From Acetatifactor sp. (GTDB lineage Bacteria > Bacillota > Clostridia > Lachnospirales > Lachnospiraceae): a stretch of 44,504 nt of DNA. The position numbers and the translations under genes are program-made. The notes under the pieces are model-generated. The model was not told the origin of the DNA. It did no database searches and saw only the letters and a program-made list of their open reading frames with translations. The stretch covers positions 1 to 44,504 of the forward strand of contig JAIDME010000217.1 in assembly GCA_029050705.1 (NCBI GenBank), read 5' to 3'. This document shows, in pieces, positions 3,232 to 13,236 of the stretch (the stretch's first letter is position 1; each line of letters starts with the position of its first letter).

Positions 3232-4164
3232 CTAATAGAAATTAGCAATTCTCCCCTCATTTATTCCATAAATAAGATAATGCTTATACAGCTCACCCCT
3301 GTCATATCCAAATGCTGCTTCTAAATCGGAATATCTGTCGGCATAATCTATATAATCAAATTTATCTATCGTTACTTCTGTTCCCCCGAAATTAGCAATT
3401 CTCCCCTCATTTATTCCGTAAGCGAAATAGTGTTCATAAAGTGCATCTCTGTCATACCCAAATGCAGCTTTTAAATCGGAATACCTGTCGGCATAATCTA
3501 TATAATCAAATTCGTGCATCCTTCCTCCAATGGAGGCATATGTATCTGCCAACCAGGGATTGTTGCTGTCAATATCTGTAGGATCCCAATTTCTGCAGGG
3601 AGAATCTTCCGGTATTTTGATTGCTGTAGGCTTTCCAAGTTCCAATTGTTCTTCGCTGTCAGAGTATACAACTACGGTTGTACCGCGTTTACAGTTATCA
3701 TATATCCATTTGGCATCCTCGACAGATACTCGGACGCATCCTAACGATGCGCCTTCTCCAAGTTTATTGTACTCTTCCCATTCCAAAGTATCAGGGGATG
3801 CAGACAAATAGGGTACGGAATGGAACAGGATTGATTTATTAAAGCGGACTGCATATCTTCCATAAGTGCCATCTACCATTAGACACCATTCATAATAATT
3901 GGAAGTTTCAAAACTACCTTCCGGAGTATCATGTCCCTCTCTTCCACAGGAACAGACCATTGCCTTAACAGCTGTCAGAGTGCCGTCTTCATTTTGCTGC
4001 CTGATCGTAATACAGTTTAGAGCTTTGTTTACATAAATAATATAATCAGGTCTTGTATCATCTGCGGTATTTAATTCTGCCGCACTTACATTGACTGCAG
4101 AAAATAACATAATCAAACATACAAAACTTACTAAACTTATGATGGACGCCTTAAATATTTTCAT
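3232..4164 (-). CDS. L,D-transpeptidase (YkuD fold) with two C-terminal ~45-aa tandem repeats
   Basis: Signal peptide; LFHSVPY and SLGCVRVS catalytic motif; repeats FDYIDYADRYSDLKAAFGYDRDALYEHYFAYGINEGRIANF / FDYIDYADRYSDLEAAFGYDRGELYKHYLIYGINEGRIANF. Confidence 0.85.
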   Translation of the reverse strand: MKIFKASIISLVSFVCLIMLFSAVNVSAAELNTADDTRPDYIIYVNKALNCITIRQQNEDGTLTAVKAMVCSCGREGHDTPEGSFETSNYYEWCLMVDGTYGRYAVRFNKSILFHSVPYLSASPDTLEWEEYNKLGEGASLGCVRVSVEDAKWIYDNCKRGTTVVVYSDSEEQLELGKPTAIKIPEDSPCRNWDPTDIDSNNPWLADTYASIGGRMHEFDYIDYADRYSDLKAAFGYDRDALYEHYFAYGINEGRIANFGGTEVTIDKFDYIDYADRYSDLEAAFGYDRGELYKHYLIYGINEGRIANFY

Positions 4165-4291: not shown

Positions 4292-4456
4292 TACTGTGTT
4301 AACTCACTCCGGTATACTCTCTGCTACGCACAGCGCCCCCCAGCCAACCCGGTCGTTAGGCAATTCCGCCTCCCCTCTTAAGGGTCTCGCCCCTTTCCTC
4401 AGATACGCCTTCACCTTCTCCCCATACAAAAACGGGTCATTCCCCCGCACGATTAC
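4292..4456 (-). repeat. Partial duplicate of the S8 peptidase 3' end (pseudogene fragment)
   Basis: 4323-4450 matches 11138-11265 with one mismatch (ccgCctcc vs ccgTctcc); encodes VRGNDPFLYGEKVKAYLRKGARPLRGEAELPNDRVGWGALCVA then ESIPE*. Confidence 0.93.
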
Positions 4457-4608
4457 CGCTGGTGTCAAGTAATTGCTACAGATTTTTTTAACTTTTTGCC
4501 TCGATTTTCCTTGAAAAATCGTTGGCTGGTGTTAGCTTATTGCTGTTTTACCAGGAGGTGCTGTTACATTGTTGCTGCACATGCTCTACCATAAATTTCC
4601 AATAGCTA

Positions 4609-5211
4609 TTAATTTAGATTTGTGCTGTTTTCTATATGCGACTGCATACTAAATAAAGAAATTTCAAAATGCATTTCCAAAGCATCAATATACTCTCTAC
4701 ATTCAATTTCCATCGGACAAGCAAGAAGTAAACTCTTTCCTGTTACTTTACTAACCCCAATATGTATATCCCAATCTTTTAAAATATCCATTCCAATCAA
4801 GATATTTCCTTTTCGATCATAATTCAGGCATATCTTATCAGATGATATCTTTACTCCACCTATCATAAAATCAGATATTCCGTGCTCAAATTTCATGGCT
4901 GGACACTCCATTTTTTCATCATCCGTAACCAGAATTTCATGCCTTAATCCTCCAGATTCAATTCCATAACTGAGAAAATATGGTGTACCATTCATAACAT
5001 CTATCTTTTTCAATGTTTTGAACAATGTGTCAGAAACTTTTAGCCTTTTGAGCGGAATGGTACTGATCGAACAACCTGTATCAATTTTCACTTTAATATC
5101 ATAAAAAGGCGCTTTAAAATTATCTAGACAAAAACTGGCTTCTGTACTGAATGAACCGCCTATCCCACAAGTTGTAGGCAACATTTCAATCTCTATATAT
5201 TTATTCATCAT
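4609..5211 (-). CDS. Retropepsin-like aspartyl protease
   Basis: IKVKIDTGCSISTIP (DTGxS active-site motif) and NILIGMDILKDWDIHIG (retropepsin-like C-terminal motif). Confidence 0.7.
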   Translation of the reverse strand: MMNKYIEIEMLPTTCGIGGSFSTEASFCLDNFKAPFYDIKVKIDTGCSISTIPLKRLKVSDTLFKTLKKIDVMNGTPYFLSYGIESGGLRHEILVTDDEKMECPAMKFEHGISDFMIGGVKISSDKICLNYDRKGNILIGMDILKDWDIHIGVSKVTGKSLLLACPMEIECREYIDALEMHFEISLFSMQSHIENSTNLN

Positions 5212-5482
5212 ATACAGCCATATCCTTCAATTCCTCTTTATCATTATAAATAGGAATTATCGTTTTTGGCTGCATAACCCAACTATCATATTCCTGATTT
5301 TGCACATCTCCACAAAACACAAGTTTTCCAATCGCACTCTCTGTATCGTCAAATAATAAGATCATATACTCATTATATATTTCACTAAGTTGTTCCGCCT
5401 TTGCCATCATGCTAATATACAAATCTTTTAGTGTATACTTCTTTTTCAGATATAGCCATTCTTTCGTGCTCCTTCCCTGCAT
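5201..5482 (-). CDS. Hypothetical small protein, translationally overlapping the retropepsin-like gene
   Basis: 93-aa ORF overlapping the next gene by 11 bp on the same strand; true start may be downstream. Confidence 0.55.
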   Translation of the reverse strand: MQGRSTKEWLYLKKKYTLKDLYISMMAKAEQLSEIYNEYMILLFDDTESAIGKLVFCGDVQNQEYDSWVMQPKTIIPIYNDKEELKDMAVYDE

Positions 5483-5549
5483 ATATACATTCAGCTACAT
5501 TATTTCCTTCTATGCTTCTTATTATGTTCTCTCTCAGAATTATACCATA

Positions 5550-5585
5550 AAGCAGGCGAATATAAAATCATCTTCGCCTGCTTTA
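5550..5585. terminator. Hairpin upstream of the retropepsin operon
   Basis: aaagcaggcgaatataaaatcatcttcgcctgcttt. Confidence 0.7.
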
Positions 5586-5684
5586 TTCTTCTCTCCACGT
5601 TCTCTCATTTTTCGGTCAATAAAGTTATTCTATTTCAAAGCAACAAACCAACTTGACGTGTTCGCCACAAAAATATGAATCTGC

Positions 5685-5942
5685 ATTAACTCACTCGGCA
5701 GACTCGAACTGACTCACAGCCCGCCCCAGCCCTCTTATGTCAAGTTAATGTCTCAAACTTTTTTGAAGTAAAATCGCTGAAACTCACATAACTTCGTTGG
5801 GTGTACGGTTAATTATTGCTAAGTTAGGGCAAAATAATGGTGATTATTGTCCAACAGTTTTTAAGTTAAATCAACTTTACCAATAGATATTTCTAAACAA
5901 AAGCCCCTCAACCCCTCCCTCAGATACTGGTTTGCCACTTCT
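5685..5942 (-). repeat. Split, degenerate S8 peptidase 3'-end remnant
   Basis: 5905-5942 reverse strand GGAGAAGTGGCAAACCAGTATCTGAGGGAGGGG resembles S8 GEKVKAYLRKG; 5685-5732 reverse strand GGCTGGGGCGGGCTGTGAGTCAGTTCGAGTCTGCCGAGTGAG resembles GWGALCVAxSxP*. Confidence 0.6.
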
Positions 5943-5943
5943 C

Positions 5944-8322
5944 CTACTTCAATTCTAGTTCAGTTCGAATAACTTTTATATTCTGTGCCATCTGAACAAT
6001 TGTCTCATGCGTGATGGCCTTTGAAAGCTTTGCCTCCAAATCGATTAGAACTTCACTCATAAGTATGTTACCTTTACTGTTTCGGAATAGCGAAGAATCT
6101 ACTTTAGACAACGCTTTATTTTTTGCATTTTCCAAATATTTTTCTGTTTTGGTCCGATTTTCCATTCCCATGCGCAATTTTCCAATCTGAATCTGAAGCA
6201 AAACATCGTTATTCCGCTGTGCCAATTTCATATGAATCTTTTTTCCTAACGTATTTGTCTCTAGCAGTATTTCTCGCCCGAAGTCAGAGACTTTATAGCT
6301 ATTGTCATCATCAATCTGGGCTACCAGTTCCCGTAGTAATAATACATTCGTACTTGAAAGGTTATCCGAAAGAAACATGTTCAAAGCCAAATCTATATTT
6401 GCCAGATATGCGTTCAGAGACAGGCGATCAGAAGCCTTTTGCATAGTAGCTTTCACCACGGTTTCCGCAAGCAAATTTGGCAGACATTTCCAGCCAATCT
6501 TTTTATACTTATCTTCAATGTTCCTCACCAATTCATCCTTAAAATTAGGGAAACACTGCTGATTGGGCACAGGATTTCTACCCGTTAACACATAATAAGT
6601 AATCATCCCAATGCTGAATACATCCACTGCCGTATTTCTGGTACCAGTTTCATGCTCATCCGTCTGCTCTGGTGCCATAAATCCCTGAGACATCTTACCT
6701 AAAGCCACCGTCAATTCCGTTGCACCTTTATGCCATGATAAGTCGAAATCCAAAATCACCACTTCTGGTATGTCATCTGAATATTCCCCATAAAAATCTT
6801 TAAGTATCACATTTTCCGGTTTTAAATCCCGATGCAAGATGCATTCCTCCAGATTATGGGACTGACAAATAATCTCAGCCATCTTTTTCAGAACTTGTAA
6901 TTTCTTATGAAATGACTGAAGCGCTTTTTTATCTATCGCATCACGAATTGTATATCCATCCACAAAATCCATAACTATACATGCTGGCACCTCATAAGAA
7001 GAATGTATTTTTACCATACCCTCCACATCATGCTCTTTCAATATTTTCATGGATCGGATTCCTCTACGGAAACAGCTTAAATATCTTACTTCATCCTTTA
7101 CTTCGGGAAGCAGAATCTTCACAGCAAATCTCTCTCCAGCGCCATTATATGCCTCATACACATTGCCAAATGCACCTCTTCCTACCGGTCTTTTTAACAG
7201 ATATCCATGCAGAATCTGTCCGTCATTGGAATCAACTTTCACATACCACGCTGCATAGAGCTGCATTGAATATGTTTTGTAGAATTCTTGCAATTTTTTT
7301 ATCTGTTCATTGGTTGGCACTGTATCAGCAGGTAAAATTTGTGCAATATTCCCATTTAATATATCCCTTAATTTATCCAACCCTATATCCAAACATTTCA
7401 TTGCTTCCGGGATATCTTCAGGTGCATATATTTTTCCTTCATATACCGTAGGATACTCTATGTCTTTCGGCAAATATTTGTGGATACTTTTAAGTATTTC
7501 CTCAATATCAGAATGATTCTCGTCTTCTGGGGTAGGAGAATATGAAATACAACTGATACCATAATCTCCAAACTTTCTCATATCCTCTGGTAAAATATTC
7601 GCACCAATATAATAATTATCATTTCCGGCAATCATTCCCTCTATTGAGATATCATTCAGCAATGACAGAAAACTATTTTCCCTTATATCAAAACCAACAA
7701 TCACCAGATTCTTTCCATTCAGTAATGTATTCAACACACTTTTAAGATTTCTGTCCCTATATGTCTCTCTTTTCTCCTCCTCTGTAAACACCCATGAAGA
7801 TGCATCGCTAATTTCACCATGAGGGAAGAAGACAAATTTCTCATTACTGGTGGGAAAATTGTTATATTTTAAAAATTCCTTTCTTGTGGCAAAGTCAACA
7901 GCAGTCCGATATACGTTAGAATAAGCATTAAGAATCAATTTATCTATATTAAATGTTATAACTCCACATACATCCAACTGCCAAATCAATTTGTAATTGA
8001 CTGGAATCGGACGATCTTTGTCAGATAAACGTTCCATAATATATTTTTTATATTCATTTTGAGGCAAAAGTTTTTTTAGTTCTTCAAAAACAGTCCAATA
8101 ATTCTCCGATGCCCTCAGCCTCTTTATCCTCTCCTCTGTAGAATCTATGGAATCCTGCATCATTTGCTCATAATTATCAATCATACCTTGTGCCAACTCT
8201 GACCACAAAGGCATTCCGGCAGGACGGGACATACCAGCACCTAAAACAAAAAGAAAGCTTTGCGGATTTTCCTTTATCTTTTTTGTAAGACGCAATAAAT
8301 TTTTATCAGTAGTATTATACAC
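5944..8322 (-). CDS. SIR2-like domain / serine-threonine protein kinase fusion, candidate anti-phage defence protein
   Basis: N-term VLGAGMSRPAGMPLWSELA, GVITFNIDKL, FFPHGEI, NLVIVGFDI (SIR2-like). Middle GRGAFGNVYEA, FAVKIL, ILHRDLKPENVIL, VILDFDLSWH, GFMAPEQ, AVDVFSIGMITYYVLTGRNP (Hanks-type kinase). Confidence 0.88.
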   Translation of the reverse strand: MYNTTDKNLLRLTKKIKENPQSFLFVLGAGMSRPAGMPLWSELAQGMIDNYEQMMQDSIDSTEERIKRLRASENYWTVFEELKKLLPQNEYKKYIMERLSDKDRPIPVNYKLIWQLDVCGVITFNIDKLILNAYSNVYRTAVDFATRKEFLKYNNFPTSNEKFVFFPHGEISDASSWVFTEEEKRETYRDRNLKSVLNTLLNGKNLVIVGFDIRENSFLSLLNDISIEGMIAGNDNYYIGANILPEDMRKFGDYGISCISYSPTPEDENHSDIEEILKSIHKYLPKDIEYPTVYEGKIYAPEDIPEAMKCLDIGLDKLRDILNGNIAQILPADTVPTNEQIKKLQEFYKTYSMQLYAAWYVKVDSNDGQILHGYLLKRPVGRGAFGNVYEAYNGAGERFAVKILLPEVKDEVRYLSCFRRGIRSMKILKEHDVEGMVKIHSSYEVPACIVMDFVDGYTIRDAIDKKALQSFHKKLQVLKKMAEIICQSHNLEECILHRDLKPENVILKDFYGEYSDDIPEVVILDFDLSWHKGATELTVALGKMSQGFMAPEQTDEHETGTRNTAVDVFSIGMITYYVLTGRNPVPNQQCFPNFKDELVRNIEDKYKKIGWKCLPNLLAETVVKATMQKASDRLSLNAYLANIDLALNMFLSDNLSSTNVLLLRELVAQIDDDNSYKVSDFGREILLETNTLGKKIHMKLAQRNNDVLLQIQIGKLRMGMENRTKTEKYLENAKNKALSKVDSSLFRNSKGNILMSEVLIDLEAKLSKAITHETIVQMAQNIKVIRTELELK

Positions 8323-8644
8323 GCTCTTTTCTCCTTTATCATTATTACAATATTAGCAAAACACTTTATTTGAAAAAGTATATCATATACACCAGTTTAC
8401 AACTTTTGAATACTTTTAAAACCCGACAAAATATAGCGCTCAATTATTTTAATTCAGGAAGCTTAATTTCTTTATAGTTTCGAGTTTTCTACAAAACTGC
8501 TGAACATTATGCTGGCCTGAATTTATTGTTCAATACCAAAACGGGGTTCCTCTACGCTGGCAACCTGGTAGCATGAAAAGGCTTCCTCACTAAATGAGCG
8601 CAGCGTCATGGCGCTATTACTTCGGCAGTTAAATCCCGCAACCT

Positions 8645-9710
8645 TTAACAACCATATTTTTCAATATAATTTAGTTTCCTATGCTTGAACAAACTTGCGA
8701 CTCTTTCCTTATGTTCCTGCAATCTATGCATATAAGCCTCTGTCTTTTGCTGATTCTGCACTTTAGTGTGCGGAATTATTCCGCTATGTATATTTTGTTT
8801 AAGGTTATGGTTAAGGTACTCATCCGGATTTATTTCCGGCGAATATGGCGACGTATAGAATATCTCTATCTCATCTTTGTGTGAATCCAGCCACTCGTTT
8901 ACGATCTTTTCATGATGTACCTTCAGGTTATCCACTATGAACAAGACTTTTAGTCGGCATCTTTTACAAGGCGCTCCATAAGGTCAATAAAAAACTGCTG
9001 GATCATATTTTCTTCATAGCATATGAAGCGGCAGGTTCCATGGTTGGTGATTGCATAAACCATGTTAATTTTTTCTATCTTGTTATAGGCTACTATTTCA
9101 GGCGTCCTCCCTTTGGTTGAATAGCCTTTGACATGGTATACCTGGTTGTTGATGCCTGTTTCATCACCCTAGTATATTTCCGCATCCTCCTTCTCGACTT
9201 TTTCAACGATGCCGGAATATGTCTCATGCATAAATGCATTGAATTTGACATTATCCTGAAAATAAGCTTTCCTTGTCGGACACTGGCAGATCATCCCCCA
9301 ACATTTGCGGTACTCGCTCATGTTCCTAGGGGGTTATAGTAATGCCGTATTTATCATATATGATTTCACAGACTGCTACACGAATCCAAAGCATGAAATT
9401 CAATTTCAACTGGTCAGAATGTTTGTCAATTAATATGCCCTGGATTTCCTTTTCCTGTCCAGGTGATAACTGACGTTTTTCACCCAGTTTACGGCTGCGT
9501 GTCTTTTCTTTAAGGCACTTAGCGCCCTCCCTATTATAGACGCCTAAAAAACGGTCAACAGCATATTTGAAAATGCCCCATGCTTCAACAATATCTTTAT
9601 GTTTGATCCCCTTCTTAAGCATAGAGACTGCCTGTTTTTTAATAACTTCTCTTGTATCCAGATTTTCTGATGTAAGGTTTATATTTTCCATTCCCGCTTT
9701 TCGGGAGCGT
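8645..9710 (-). pseudogene. IS630-family transposase remnant (frameshifted/interrupted)
   Basis: C-term FIVDNLKVHHEKIVNEW...FYTSPYSPEINPDEYLNHNLKQNI (DDE); a further GDETGINNQVYHVKGYSTKGRTPEIV-like region near 9.05-9.2 kb; N-term HTH TREVIKKQAVSMLKKGIKHKDIVEAWGI in the 9326-10111 ORF. Confidence 0.75.
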
Positions 9711-10553
9711 AACAATGGCATAGCCCCCCGTTCTCCCCACAGCTTGGTGAGCACTGGGCGCATGCCTGTCTTCCAGTCCCCGGTTTTTGGAGATTCAAGC
9801 TCGGATTTTTCCGGTGATAGACGTTCGCCATATTTCTTTGGCCGGCCACGTTTCCCCGTGCGTTCAGGCGGGAGATCATACATGACAATGTCAATCCTGA
9901 CGTTACAGATGATGTCAAGGTAATGGAACTCATTTACAAGACCTGCAACGCACTCTTTTGGATACCAGCTGTCACAGAGCAGGAACACCTGCCTGTCCGG
10001 ACCGATCTTATCCATTGCGCGTCCCACAATCTCCGCGGCATTTCCAGCTTTGTCGTTTTTTGTTCCAAAGTCGGCAGCCCAGCGGGACAGATAGATAGCG
10101 AATGGAACCATCAGCCATAACAGGGAATGACAGCAGGATGCTTACCATGCAGAGTCATCCAGATAATTGGAGCCGTTATACGCGACATGGTCGAAGAGCC
10201 TTGAGTGGATTTCAAGCTTTTCGCCTTCCTTTTCCACCATAGTGTCATCAATGGGAAGAAAAAGCGGCTGCTCCTTTAAATAGTCAGGCACCGTCCTCAA
10301 CACTTTGGATAGTGTCACATTCCTCCAGAATTCGTGGTCCAGCCTGTCGGTTTTAATCGCATAGTAGCATGCATTCAGTGATGTGTCTGAAAGATTTGAG
10401 AGCACATGCCTGTGTGCAAATCGTACAGACCGAAAAAAACAGCGCCAATATGGAAACAACAATAAGGAACAGGTTCCTAGTAGTAGGTTTTGTTGCATCG
10501 GAAAAATATTCATCAAAATAAGGTTTCAGTTTGTCCAAGACAGAACTTTTCAT
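9711..10553 (-). pseudogene. IS4/IS701-like DDE transposase remnant, truncated by the IS630-like element and frameshifted
   Basis: Fragments LKPYFDEYFSDATKPTTRNLFLIVVSILAL, PLFLPIDDTMVEKEGEKLEIHSRLFDHVAYNGSNYLDD, VFLLCDSWYPKECVAGLVNEF, KRGRPKKYGERL in shifting frames. Confidence 0.7.
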
Positions 10554-11118
10554 GTATAATAAGCGGTAGAAACAAACTCATCTCTTTTCGTAGGGTTTTG
10601 CTCAACGCTTTATTCACGCAATGAAGAACATGTGTTTGTGTCTTTATTTTAAAATAGTTTTAAACTGGTGTATAATTATGTTACAATGGAAAATATAGTT
10701 TTTCCATATTATTTCATCGACAAAATTCGACATTTTCAGACAATTATCTTTTTTTGTGGACATTATTTCACCGTTTAAAATCATTCTTAAACCTTTTTCA
10801 TATATACTAATTTTTCTTCTGCCTAATTATCCATATAAAAGAATTCGCATTATCACATCAAATCCCTTTTCTTACTTTCAACAAGCCCCCTCACTTATGT
10901 ACTTTATCCAAATCATTTTTTCACTTAGTTAAAGCCAGTATATGGTTCAGTAAACTATTTTATCCATTTACAGTCCGCATACTTTAAGGAATTGGCAGAA
11001 CAAAAATATGCCCACCACCCATTTACAGGCTAACACTTTTCATGCTTTAATAATAAATACACGTTTTAAAAAATAAAGGAATCAGTTCGATTCATCTGTC
11101 CCATAAACATTATCCATT

Positions 11119-13113
11119 TCACCCCGGAAGACTTGAGGCTACGCACAGCGCCCCCCAGCCAACCCGGTCGTTAGGCAATTCCGTCTCCCCTCTTAAGGGT
11201 CTCGCCCCTTTCCTCAGATACGCCTTCACCTTCTCCCCATACAAAAACGGGTCATTCCCCCGCACAATTCCCCACTCCATGAGCAGGGCCGCCGCCCCGG
11301 TGACTATGGGAGTGGCAAAGGAAGTTCCTGTGACGGGCAGATAGCTGCCGTAAATGTCCGGTGCCGTCACTCCCACTCCCGGCGCCACCAGGTCCGGCTT
11401 CACCAGCCCGGAGGTCACAACTCCTATGGTCCGGTCCGCGTCCGCATACCCTCTGCCTGAAAAATCCGCATAGGCATCATAGGTGCTGTCATAGGCCCCC
11501 ACTGTGATGACCTTTGCCGCCGTGGAGGGAATGGTCAGGGTCACCTCCGGTGTGGGACGGTAAAAACCGGTTGTCGCGCTGCGGGCGGCCGCGCTGGGCA
11601 GATAAAAATAATACTGTCCGGTTACGATTTCAATGCCTTCCAGGCGCACCATCCACACCCCACTGTTGATGTACCGCCGCCCGGAGGGGATCAGTTCCAG
11701 ATAGATTTCCTGTGCTGCCGCGTAGGGCGTGGGTTCCCCCATGTAGACCAGCACCTCCGTCTGCTCCAGTCGCAATGTATACTTTCCATTCTCCACAGAC
11801 AGCGGCAGTTCCGACTCCTGCCCTCCGGGTGCGCGCAGCCGAATCCTATATACGTCACTGTAATTTTTCCACAGCTGAATGCTCAGAGAACTCTCGTACT
11901 CTCCCACCGCAATCTCCACATCTGCCGTGCGGGCTGCTGTGCTGATTCCAGATACCGTTCTACCGATTCCGGACGCTGATGTGCCAACACCCTGCATCGT
12001 CTGTCCGCTCCCTGCTCCTGCCCCGTCGATTCTTCCCAGTCTTCCGGCCAGATGACCGGCACTTGCTCCGTCATTTCCGCTGCCTACGCAGATGACCGTC
12101 CTGCCGATCTCCGCCGCATTATCCATGAACCGCTCCAGAAGGGAACTGCCGTCATGGGCTCCGTAGCTGTTGCCGAAGCTTAGATTAATGGCCAGAGGCA
12201 TCTGCAGTTCCTGAGCCTTTCTCACTGCCCAGGTCACTCCCCGCATGATCTCCGTAGTCCTGGGAAAGGATGCTGCGTCCGGCAGCCCAAGCTTCACGAT
12301 CAGCAGCTCCGCCTCAGGCGCCGCCCCGCTGTAGTACTGCGCACCACCAAAAGGACTGGTGTTTCCGCCTCCTCCGCTGTACCCGGCGGCAATTCCGGCC
12401 ACCGCCGTGCCGTGGCCGCTTGTGTCCACCGTGGGAAGAAGCATAAACTGCTGCTGCGGTGTATCCGCCTGTAACGCTGCATTAATCTGTGCCGCGCCAA
12501 ATTCCACCCCCTGCCGAAATCCCGCAGGGGGACGACGCGCAGATTCAACGAATTCCGCCGACATGCCATCATCCCCTATCCCTGTGGATCCGCCCTCCGT
12601 CCCCAGACGCCTTTCTTCGCCCCCGATATCAACATCGGAAAAAGTATCAGACCGCAGAGTCTGATCCCACAGATAACGAATCCTTGTGCTGCCGTCGGAA
12701 TGCCGGAAAACCGGCAGCCGATAATCGATGCCGCTGTCCAGAACCGCCACCAGCACCCCCTTTCCCGTCAGAGAAAAACCCTGCCCGGATAACTGCTGTA
12801 TGCAGGAATCCGCGACAGGGTTCGTCACCTCATAGAAAAAGCGTTTGGGCTTTTCCACATATTCAATTTCCTCCAGTTCCACAACGCGCTCAACCAGTCC
12901 CTCCGGAACGGTAAGCACGGCATATCCTGCAATCAGATACTCAATCTGCACATTTAAAACCGACAGCACATCCAGACTTCCGTGATACTTTACAATCAGC
13001 TCCCAGGTCCTCTCAATGCCGTTAAATCCTACATTCAACTCCTCCGTACGCTCTCTTGTCTCCTCCGATGTCTGCAGCGCCAGCTGCAAAAGGTCCTCCA
13101 GCTTCTGATTCAT
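11119..13113 (-). CDS. S8 (subtilisin-like) family peptidase, Csp/germination-protease-like
   Basis: Catalytic Asp GVLVAVLDSGIDY, His DTSGHGTAVAGIAAG, Ser GTSFATPIVTGAAALL; start chosen at MNQKLEDLLQ behind GGAGGCGTGAC. Confidence 0.92.
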   Translation of the reverse strand: MNQKLEDLLQLALQTSEETRERTEELNVGFNGIERTWELIVKYHGSLDVLSVLNVQIEYLIAGYAVLTVPEGLVERVVELEEIEYVEKPKRFFYEVTNPVADSCIQQLSGQGFSLTGKGVLVAVLDSGIDYRLPVFRHSDGSTRIRYLWDQTLRSDTFSDVDIGGEERRLGTEGGSTGIGDDGMSAEFVESARRPPAGFRQGVEFGAAQINAALQADTPQQQFMLLPTVDTSGHGTAVAGIAAGYSGGGGNTSPFGGAQYYSGAAPEAELLIVKLGLPDAASFPRTTEIMRGVTWAVRKAQELQMPLAINLSFGNSYGAHDGSSLLERFMDNAAEIGRTVICVGSGNDGASAGHLAGRLGRIDGAGAGSGQTMQGVGTSASGIGRTVSGISTAARTADVEIAVGEYESSLSIQLWKNYSDVYRIRLRAPGGQESELPLSVENGKYTLRLEQTEVLVYMGEPTPYAAAQEIYLELIPSGRRYINSGVWMVRLEGIEIVTGQYYFYLPSAAARSATTGFYRPTPEVTLTIPSTAAKVITVGAYDSTYDAYADFSGRGYADADRTIGVVTSGLVKPDLVAPGVGVTAPDIYGSYLPVTGTSFATPIVTGAAALLMEWGIVRGNDPFLYGEKVKAYLRKGARPLRGETELPNDRVGWGALCVASSLPG

Positions 13114-13236
13114 GTCACGCCTCCGTGCCGCCGGTGGCGGCACACTCTTTTCTCTCACAGAAGCCTATGCGTGGGAGTCCGGGCCTAGTACACCCCGCGC
13201 CAATTAATCATATGTTTCCCTTATCTAAAAATCATA

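Follow-up and report, generated by a model that had tools for sequence, protein, structure and literature searches.

Few suicide effectors of bacterial immunity are as common as SIR2 NADases, which are coupled to many different sensors. DSR2 and DSR1 are single large proteins with an N-terminal SIR2 NADase, and in DSR2 (~1005 aa), which lacks a kinase, the C-terminal part is a long helical sensor. ThsA, the SIR2 NADase effector of Thoeris, carries a C-terminal SLOG domain and acts with the TIR partner ThsB, whereas KomC of the Kongming system (KomBC) is a 264-aa stand-alone SIR2-domain NADase that works with KomB. In Lamassu, LmuA of the SIR2 type is accompanied by an LmuB/SMC-type partner, and the SIR2-HerA and SIR2-APAZ-pAgo systems have HerA or pAgo genes. 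Ser/Thr kinases are tied to phage defence as well, as in Stk2, PD-T4-6 and KKP, none of which is fused to SIR2 and the last of which requires two kinases and a phosphatase, and in MAD6 of the MADS system. In the open-licence literature we found no SIR2 NADase described as wired to a Ser/Thr kinase and no description of the joint architecture, which may have been reported elsewhere. Here, we describe a gene in which the two are fused and compare it with these systems.

The gene lies in the window, a 44,504-nucleotide stretch of contig JAIDME010000217.1 from Acetatifactor sp. (Lachnospiraceae). An initial annotation made from the letters alone had read positions 5944-8322 as one 792-aa open reading frame joining a SIR2-like domain to a Ser/Thr kinase. 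The frame is open over its full length and Pfam finds both SIR2_2 and Pkinase in the one chain, but it is encoded by the minus strand (8322→5944), the plus strand of this interval being rich in stop codons. Translation begins at a GTG codon with an AAAGGAG ribosome-binding site ~8 nt upstream. In the closest homologue translation starts at the corresponding residue, which is also where DNA similarity between the two copies sets in. The SIR2-like motifs of the annotation are found at residues 28 (GAGMS), 123 (TFNID), 167 (PHGE) and 209 (VGF), followed in the kinase half by GRGAFGNV (381), HRDLKPEN (497), LDFDLS (524) and MAPEQ (549). Pfam scores are 46.2 bits for SIR2_2 (cut-off 24.5) and 94.9 bits for Pkinase (cut-off 31.7; E 6.9e-27). 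An independent SIR2 profile, built from eight other SIR2_2 proteins with the window protein left out, matched residues 2-291 at 114 bits and none of 200 shuffled copies. These profile scores and shuffles exclude a chance match and confirm the fused gene as real.

The SIR2 domain (residues 1-285; 7468..8322, minus strand) is supported by SIR2_2, the independent profile, AlphaFold2 and Foldseek. Modelled from a 27-sequence alignment that included SIR2 proteins from viral contigs, it reached a mean pLDDT of 84 and a pTM of 0.84; the whole protein, modelled from a two-sequence alignment, reached a pLDDT of 35, so that the usable model is that of the SIR2 domain alone. Foldseek searches of the PDB with this model gave DSR2 as the top match (E 3.5e-12), followed by ThsA and KomC, with TM scores of ~0.70-0.76, and ranked defence NADases above sirtuin deacetylases. 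The SIR2 fold on which the initial annotation depended is thus borne out. The catalytic residues that it had named are likewise in place: N125 (codon 7948-7950), D127 and H168 (codon 7819-7821) are invariant in all 27 aligned SIR2 sequences and in all four fusion proteins known to us, i.e., the window protein and the three homologues described below. Mutation of the matching residues of DSR2, N133 for N125 and H171 for H168, abolishes NAD+ cleavage (PMC11087589). By modelled fold and catalytic residues the domain is of the defence-NADase type, and it would be expected to hydrolyse NAD+.

A linker (residues 286-372; 7207..7467, minus strand) that matches no known family leads to the kinase domain (residues 373-645; 6388..7206, minus strand); three linker residues, R319, L322 and N323, are kept in all four members. 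The kinase had been called a complete Hanks-type domain, and its catalytic residues are indeed intact: the VAIK lysine K402, the HRD aspartate D499 (codon 6826-6828), the catalytic-loop N504, the DFG aspartate D525 and the APE residues P551-E552 occur in each of the four fusions, from which kinase activity is predicted. The DFG motif, however, is not canonical, as its glycine is replaced by aspartate in all four (DFD), a change that might alter magnesium handling or weaken the kinase. The surrounding LDFDLSWHK forms a kinase motif common to the family and provides, from its four members, a sequence signature by which further members can be located. The C-terminal region of ~145 aa (residues 646-792; 5947..6387, minus strand) is poorly conserved, matches no known family and is a candidate sensor.

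Compared with the described systems, the fusion shares with DSR2 and DSR1 the single-chain layout, the N-terminal SIR2 fold and the catalytic N and H. It differs from DSR2 in what follows the SIR2 domain, since linker, kinase and the ~145-aa tail stand where a long helical sensor would directly succeed it. ThsA provides the closest sequence match in the PDB (SeThsA, 7uxt, E 1e-4), but the fusion protein has no SLOG match, and no TIR gene was recognised among the open reading frames around the window copy and its homologues, some of which were scanned with Pfam. KomC resembles the SIR2 domain at a TM score of ~0.7, but no partner of the KomB kind lies beside the fusion. The LmuA profile matches the SIR2 region (residues 22-286), with a fused kinase in place of the LmuB/SMC-type partner; neither the window insert nor the surroundings of the homologues showed a recognisable SMC-like LmuB. 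Neither a HerA nor a pAgo gene was recognised next to any member, the neighbour of one of them (L224) being a TrwC/TraI relaxase-helicase. On the kinase side, the best PADLOC match is MAD6, which covers residues 340-643 without the SIR2 half and scores 81.9 against an NCBIfam cut-off of 460. No MADS methylase or other mad gene was found among the scanned window genes, and the neighbours differ at all loci. The two kinases and phosphatase of KKP are replaced by a single kinase, with no phosphatase seen beside the gene. Pfam and PADLOC recognised no defence gene among the window neighbours scanned. The inability of the initial annotation to match the protein to a characterised system holds for the architecture as a whole, which no single PADLOC, NCBIfam or Pfam model spans. 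The protein is therefore best described as a candidate SIR2-effector defence protein with a predicted control domain new to the type.

Our main reading, to which we assign a probability of roughly 0.55, is that the gene encodes a mobile one-gene anti-phage system of the abortive-infection kind in which the kinase controls the SIR2 NADase. The N-terminal SIR2 domain would be the effector, hydrolysing NAD+ once freed from inhibition, and sensing and switching would fall to the fused kinase, probably together with the variable C-terminal region. On a cue from infection the kinase would phosphorylate the chain to which it belongs or neighbouring chains of an oligomer, phosphorylation would turn on the NADase, and the resulting NAD+ collapse would halt phage growth. 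In this scheme we infer the NADase activity, the defence phenotype, the cue from the phage, and that the kinase acts as switch and not as effector. If it is true, the joining of an NADase and its kinase gate in a single chain would constitute a phosphorylation switch for cell-death immunity, akin to the logic of eukaryotic innate immunity.

The roles of the two halves might also be reversed, with the kinase arresting growth by phosphorylating host or phage proteins, as in Stk2 and KKP, and the SIR2 domain sensing an NAD+ or ADP-ribose signal that controls it. Across the two pairs of homologues, which span phyla, the kinase is the best-conserved part (34-36% identity, vs. 25-26% in the SIR2 domain, with linker and tail at 12-24%), kinase-only defence is known from KKP and Stk2 (PMC11341870), and MAD6, itself a kinase, is the best PADLOC match. 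Against this, the SIR2 domain belongs to the NAD-depleting type found in defence and retains both catalytic residues, N and H, and a purely sensing domain would not require the catalytic His in all members, so that we regard this reversal as unlikely. For the arrangement with SIR2 as effector, the rapid divergence of the tail, seen in few sequences, would suit a part that faces the phage.

The search for the same architecture and its neighbours that the initial annotation had proposed gave three whole-architecture homologues. One (L032) is from the metagenome-assembled genome of a second Lachnospiraceae species and is 67% identical over 692 aligned residues, its C-terminus being cut off by the contig end. 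The other two come from IMG/VR contigs: L220 encodes 794 aa and is 26-27% identical from the SIR2 domain through the linker to the kinase (E 4e-80), and L224 encodes ~789 aa with 26% identity and SIR2_2 and Pkinase Pfam matches of its own. Both were retrieved from the viral contigs by short family motifs; two further matches of the second short motif (L222 and L223) were rejected as chance. Peptide patterns taken from the window protein or from its two-sequence alignment matched no fusion in the viral contigs, other SIR2 proteins used as queries also found none, and whole-protein searches returned mostly unrelated kinases. In separately built SIR2 and kinase trees the four fusions form one clade, with support of 100/98 and 100/100, respectively; in the kinase tree long branches were flagged, and the comparison kinases were mostly Lachnospiraceae housekeeping enzymes, against which alone the clustering was tested. 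The branching order is the same in both trees, (window, L032) with (L220, L224). Because the two trees agree in clade and order, they point to a single old fusion event, after which the domains would have been inherited together as a unit.

The homologues lie outside housekeeping loci, in keeping with the defence role first proposed, and no neighbour is common to the four. The L032 copy is located just downstream of the subtilase gene csp, with a KilA-N gene in between. L220 is a P2-like prophage, as seen from Pfam matches of its gpU, tail tube and sheath genes and from a tail region similar to that of Burkholderia phage KL3 and related phages. Its fusion gene is placed between the repressor and gpD, where KL3 has only a gene of ~91 aa, and hence occupies an accessory position. 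A correspondence of this site with the defence hotspot of E. coli P2-like phages was rejected, as that hotspot lies at gpA-gpQ (PMC9122126). The L224 copy adjoins a relaxase-helicase of the TraI/TrwC type. The KilA-N domain gene beside the L032 copy (7039-7896) is close to a family of phage transcription regulators and was not found in the genome of the window.

With one of four members standing beside the repressor of a P2-like prophage, and the contexts differing among all of them, the gene could serve prophage or element maintenance or lysogeny control, as addiction or superinfection exclusion, instead of general anti-phage defence; KKP shows that a kinase module is able to control prophages (PMC11341870). 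We consider this improbable: the carriers are otherwise unalike, an antitoxin-like partner is not conserved, and superinfection exclusion would still count as phage defence. The three relatives, two of them on a prophage and on an element of the conjugation type, point to a family of single-gene anti-virus defences that would be new, although the mobile setting of these two is partly a sampling effect because both came from a viral collection. More tentatively, and at somewhat less than even odds, the four proteins may represent a new family of single-chain immune receptors, rare yet widespread, whose SIR2 NADase is gated through phosphorylation by a eukaryotic-like kinase and which phages, conjugative elements and integrative islands have carried from one phylum to another.

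Within the sampled searches, the fusion family is of rare and patchy occurrence. The remaining 137/138 genomes of the genus yielded no further fusion, nor did samples of ~300-400 genomes each of the family, order, class and phylum or the plasmid and phage records searched, and SIR2 relatives scanned within the same order had no kinase half; these distribution searches cover samples of genomes, and the genome-wide pattern scan reaches close relatives only. In the window, the gene is carried by an insertion of ~6.7 kb (4458..11118) with a GC content of 37.5%, compared to ~48-50% in its flanks. The insertion is bounded by two 154-bp direct repeats that are 93.5% identical to each other: the proximal one (11119..11272, minus strand) is the present 3' end of csp (gene 11119-13158), and the distal one (4304..4457, minus strand) is the displaced original 3' end. 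The nearest relative (G667) lacks the insertion and has an empty site, with csp directly joined to the YkuD gene, which in the window stands beyond the island. Empty site, direct repeats and low GC together indicate that the island is mobile. Both the insertion with its empty site and the absence of the fusion from the other 137 genomes of the genus and the sampled higher taxa speak against a cellular regulator, i.e., an NAD-dependent deacylase or ADP-ribosyltransferase linked to kinase signalling. Housekeeping members do exist among both SIR2 proteins and Hanks kinases, but the fold is nearer to defence NADases than to sirtuin deacetylases, and we hold such a role to be very improbable.

The transposon remnants that had been noticed around the gene are present, but they are degraded (8645..10516, minus strand) and lie inside this defined insertion: a DDE_3 fragment at 8645-8944 and DDE_5-like pieces at 9326-10516 that fall below the Pfam cut-off. 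No recombinase remains within the window insert. That the gene is itself a decaying passenger among these broken transposases is hardly credible, given its full-length frame and ribosome-binding site, catalytic residues all kept across phyla, and a dN of 0.23 with saturated dS between the window and L032 copies, from which purifying selection on both domains follows.

The 3' end of csp (codon ~630) is a recurrent integration site, used also in L091, L083, L086 and L092. In one genome (G659) csp is split at the same position by a 10-kb element that ends in three large serine recombinases and whose right end resembles that of the window insert. Displaced csp fragments occur in three further genomes (L083, L086 and L092), and the element at csp in L091 combines three large serine recombinases with sulfate-activation (cysDN-like) cargo. 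Elsewhere in the genus, a PD-T4-4_A-like ATPase gene (L085, 2908-4242) and a PDC-M03A-like gene (L087, 2831-3799) lie directly downstream of csp in two genomes, PADLOC matches to broad profiles that hint at a possible defence hotspot at this site.

The YkuD (L,D-transpeptidase) gene of the window has a C-terminal tandem repeat of 125 bp with 86% identity (3238-3512). Two overlapping genes at 4609-5482 on the minus strand have products of 93 aa and 200 aa, both without a Pfam match; the 200-aa protein contains a DTG motif of the retropepsin kind (VKIDTGCSISTIPL). A three-gene operon of the fusion with these two downstream genes was rejected, as they lie ~460 bp away from it and were not seen beside L220 or L224; the L032 contig, which ends inside the fusion gene, is uninformative on this point. 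A homologue of the 200-aa protein with 48% identity is found on the Pseudobutyrivibrio plasmid pNP95, where a small gene is located in front of it too.
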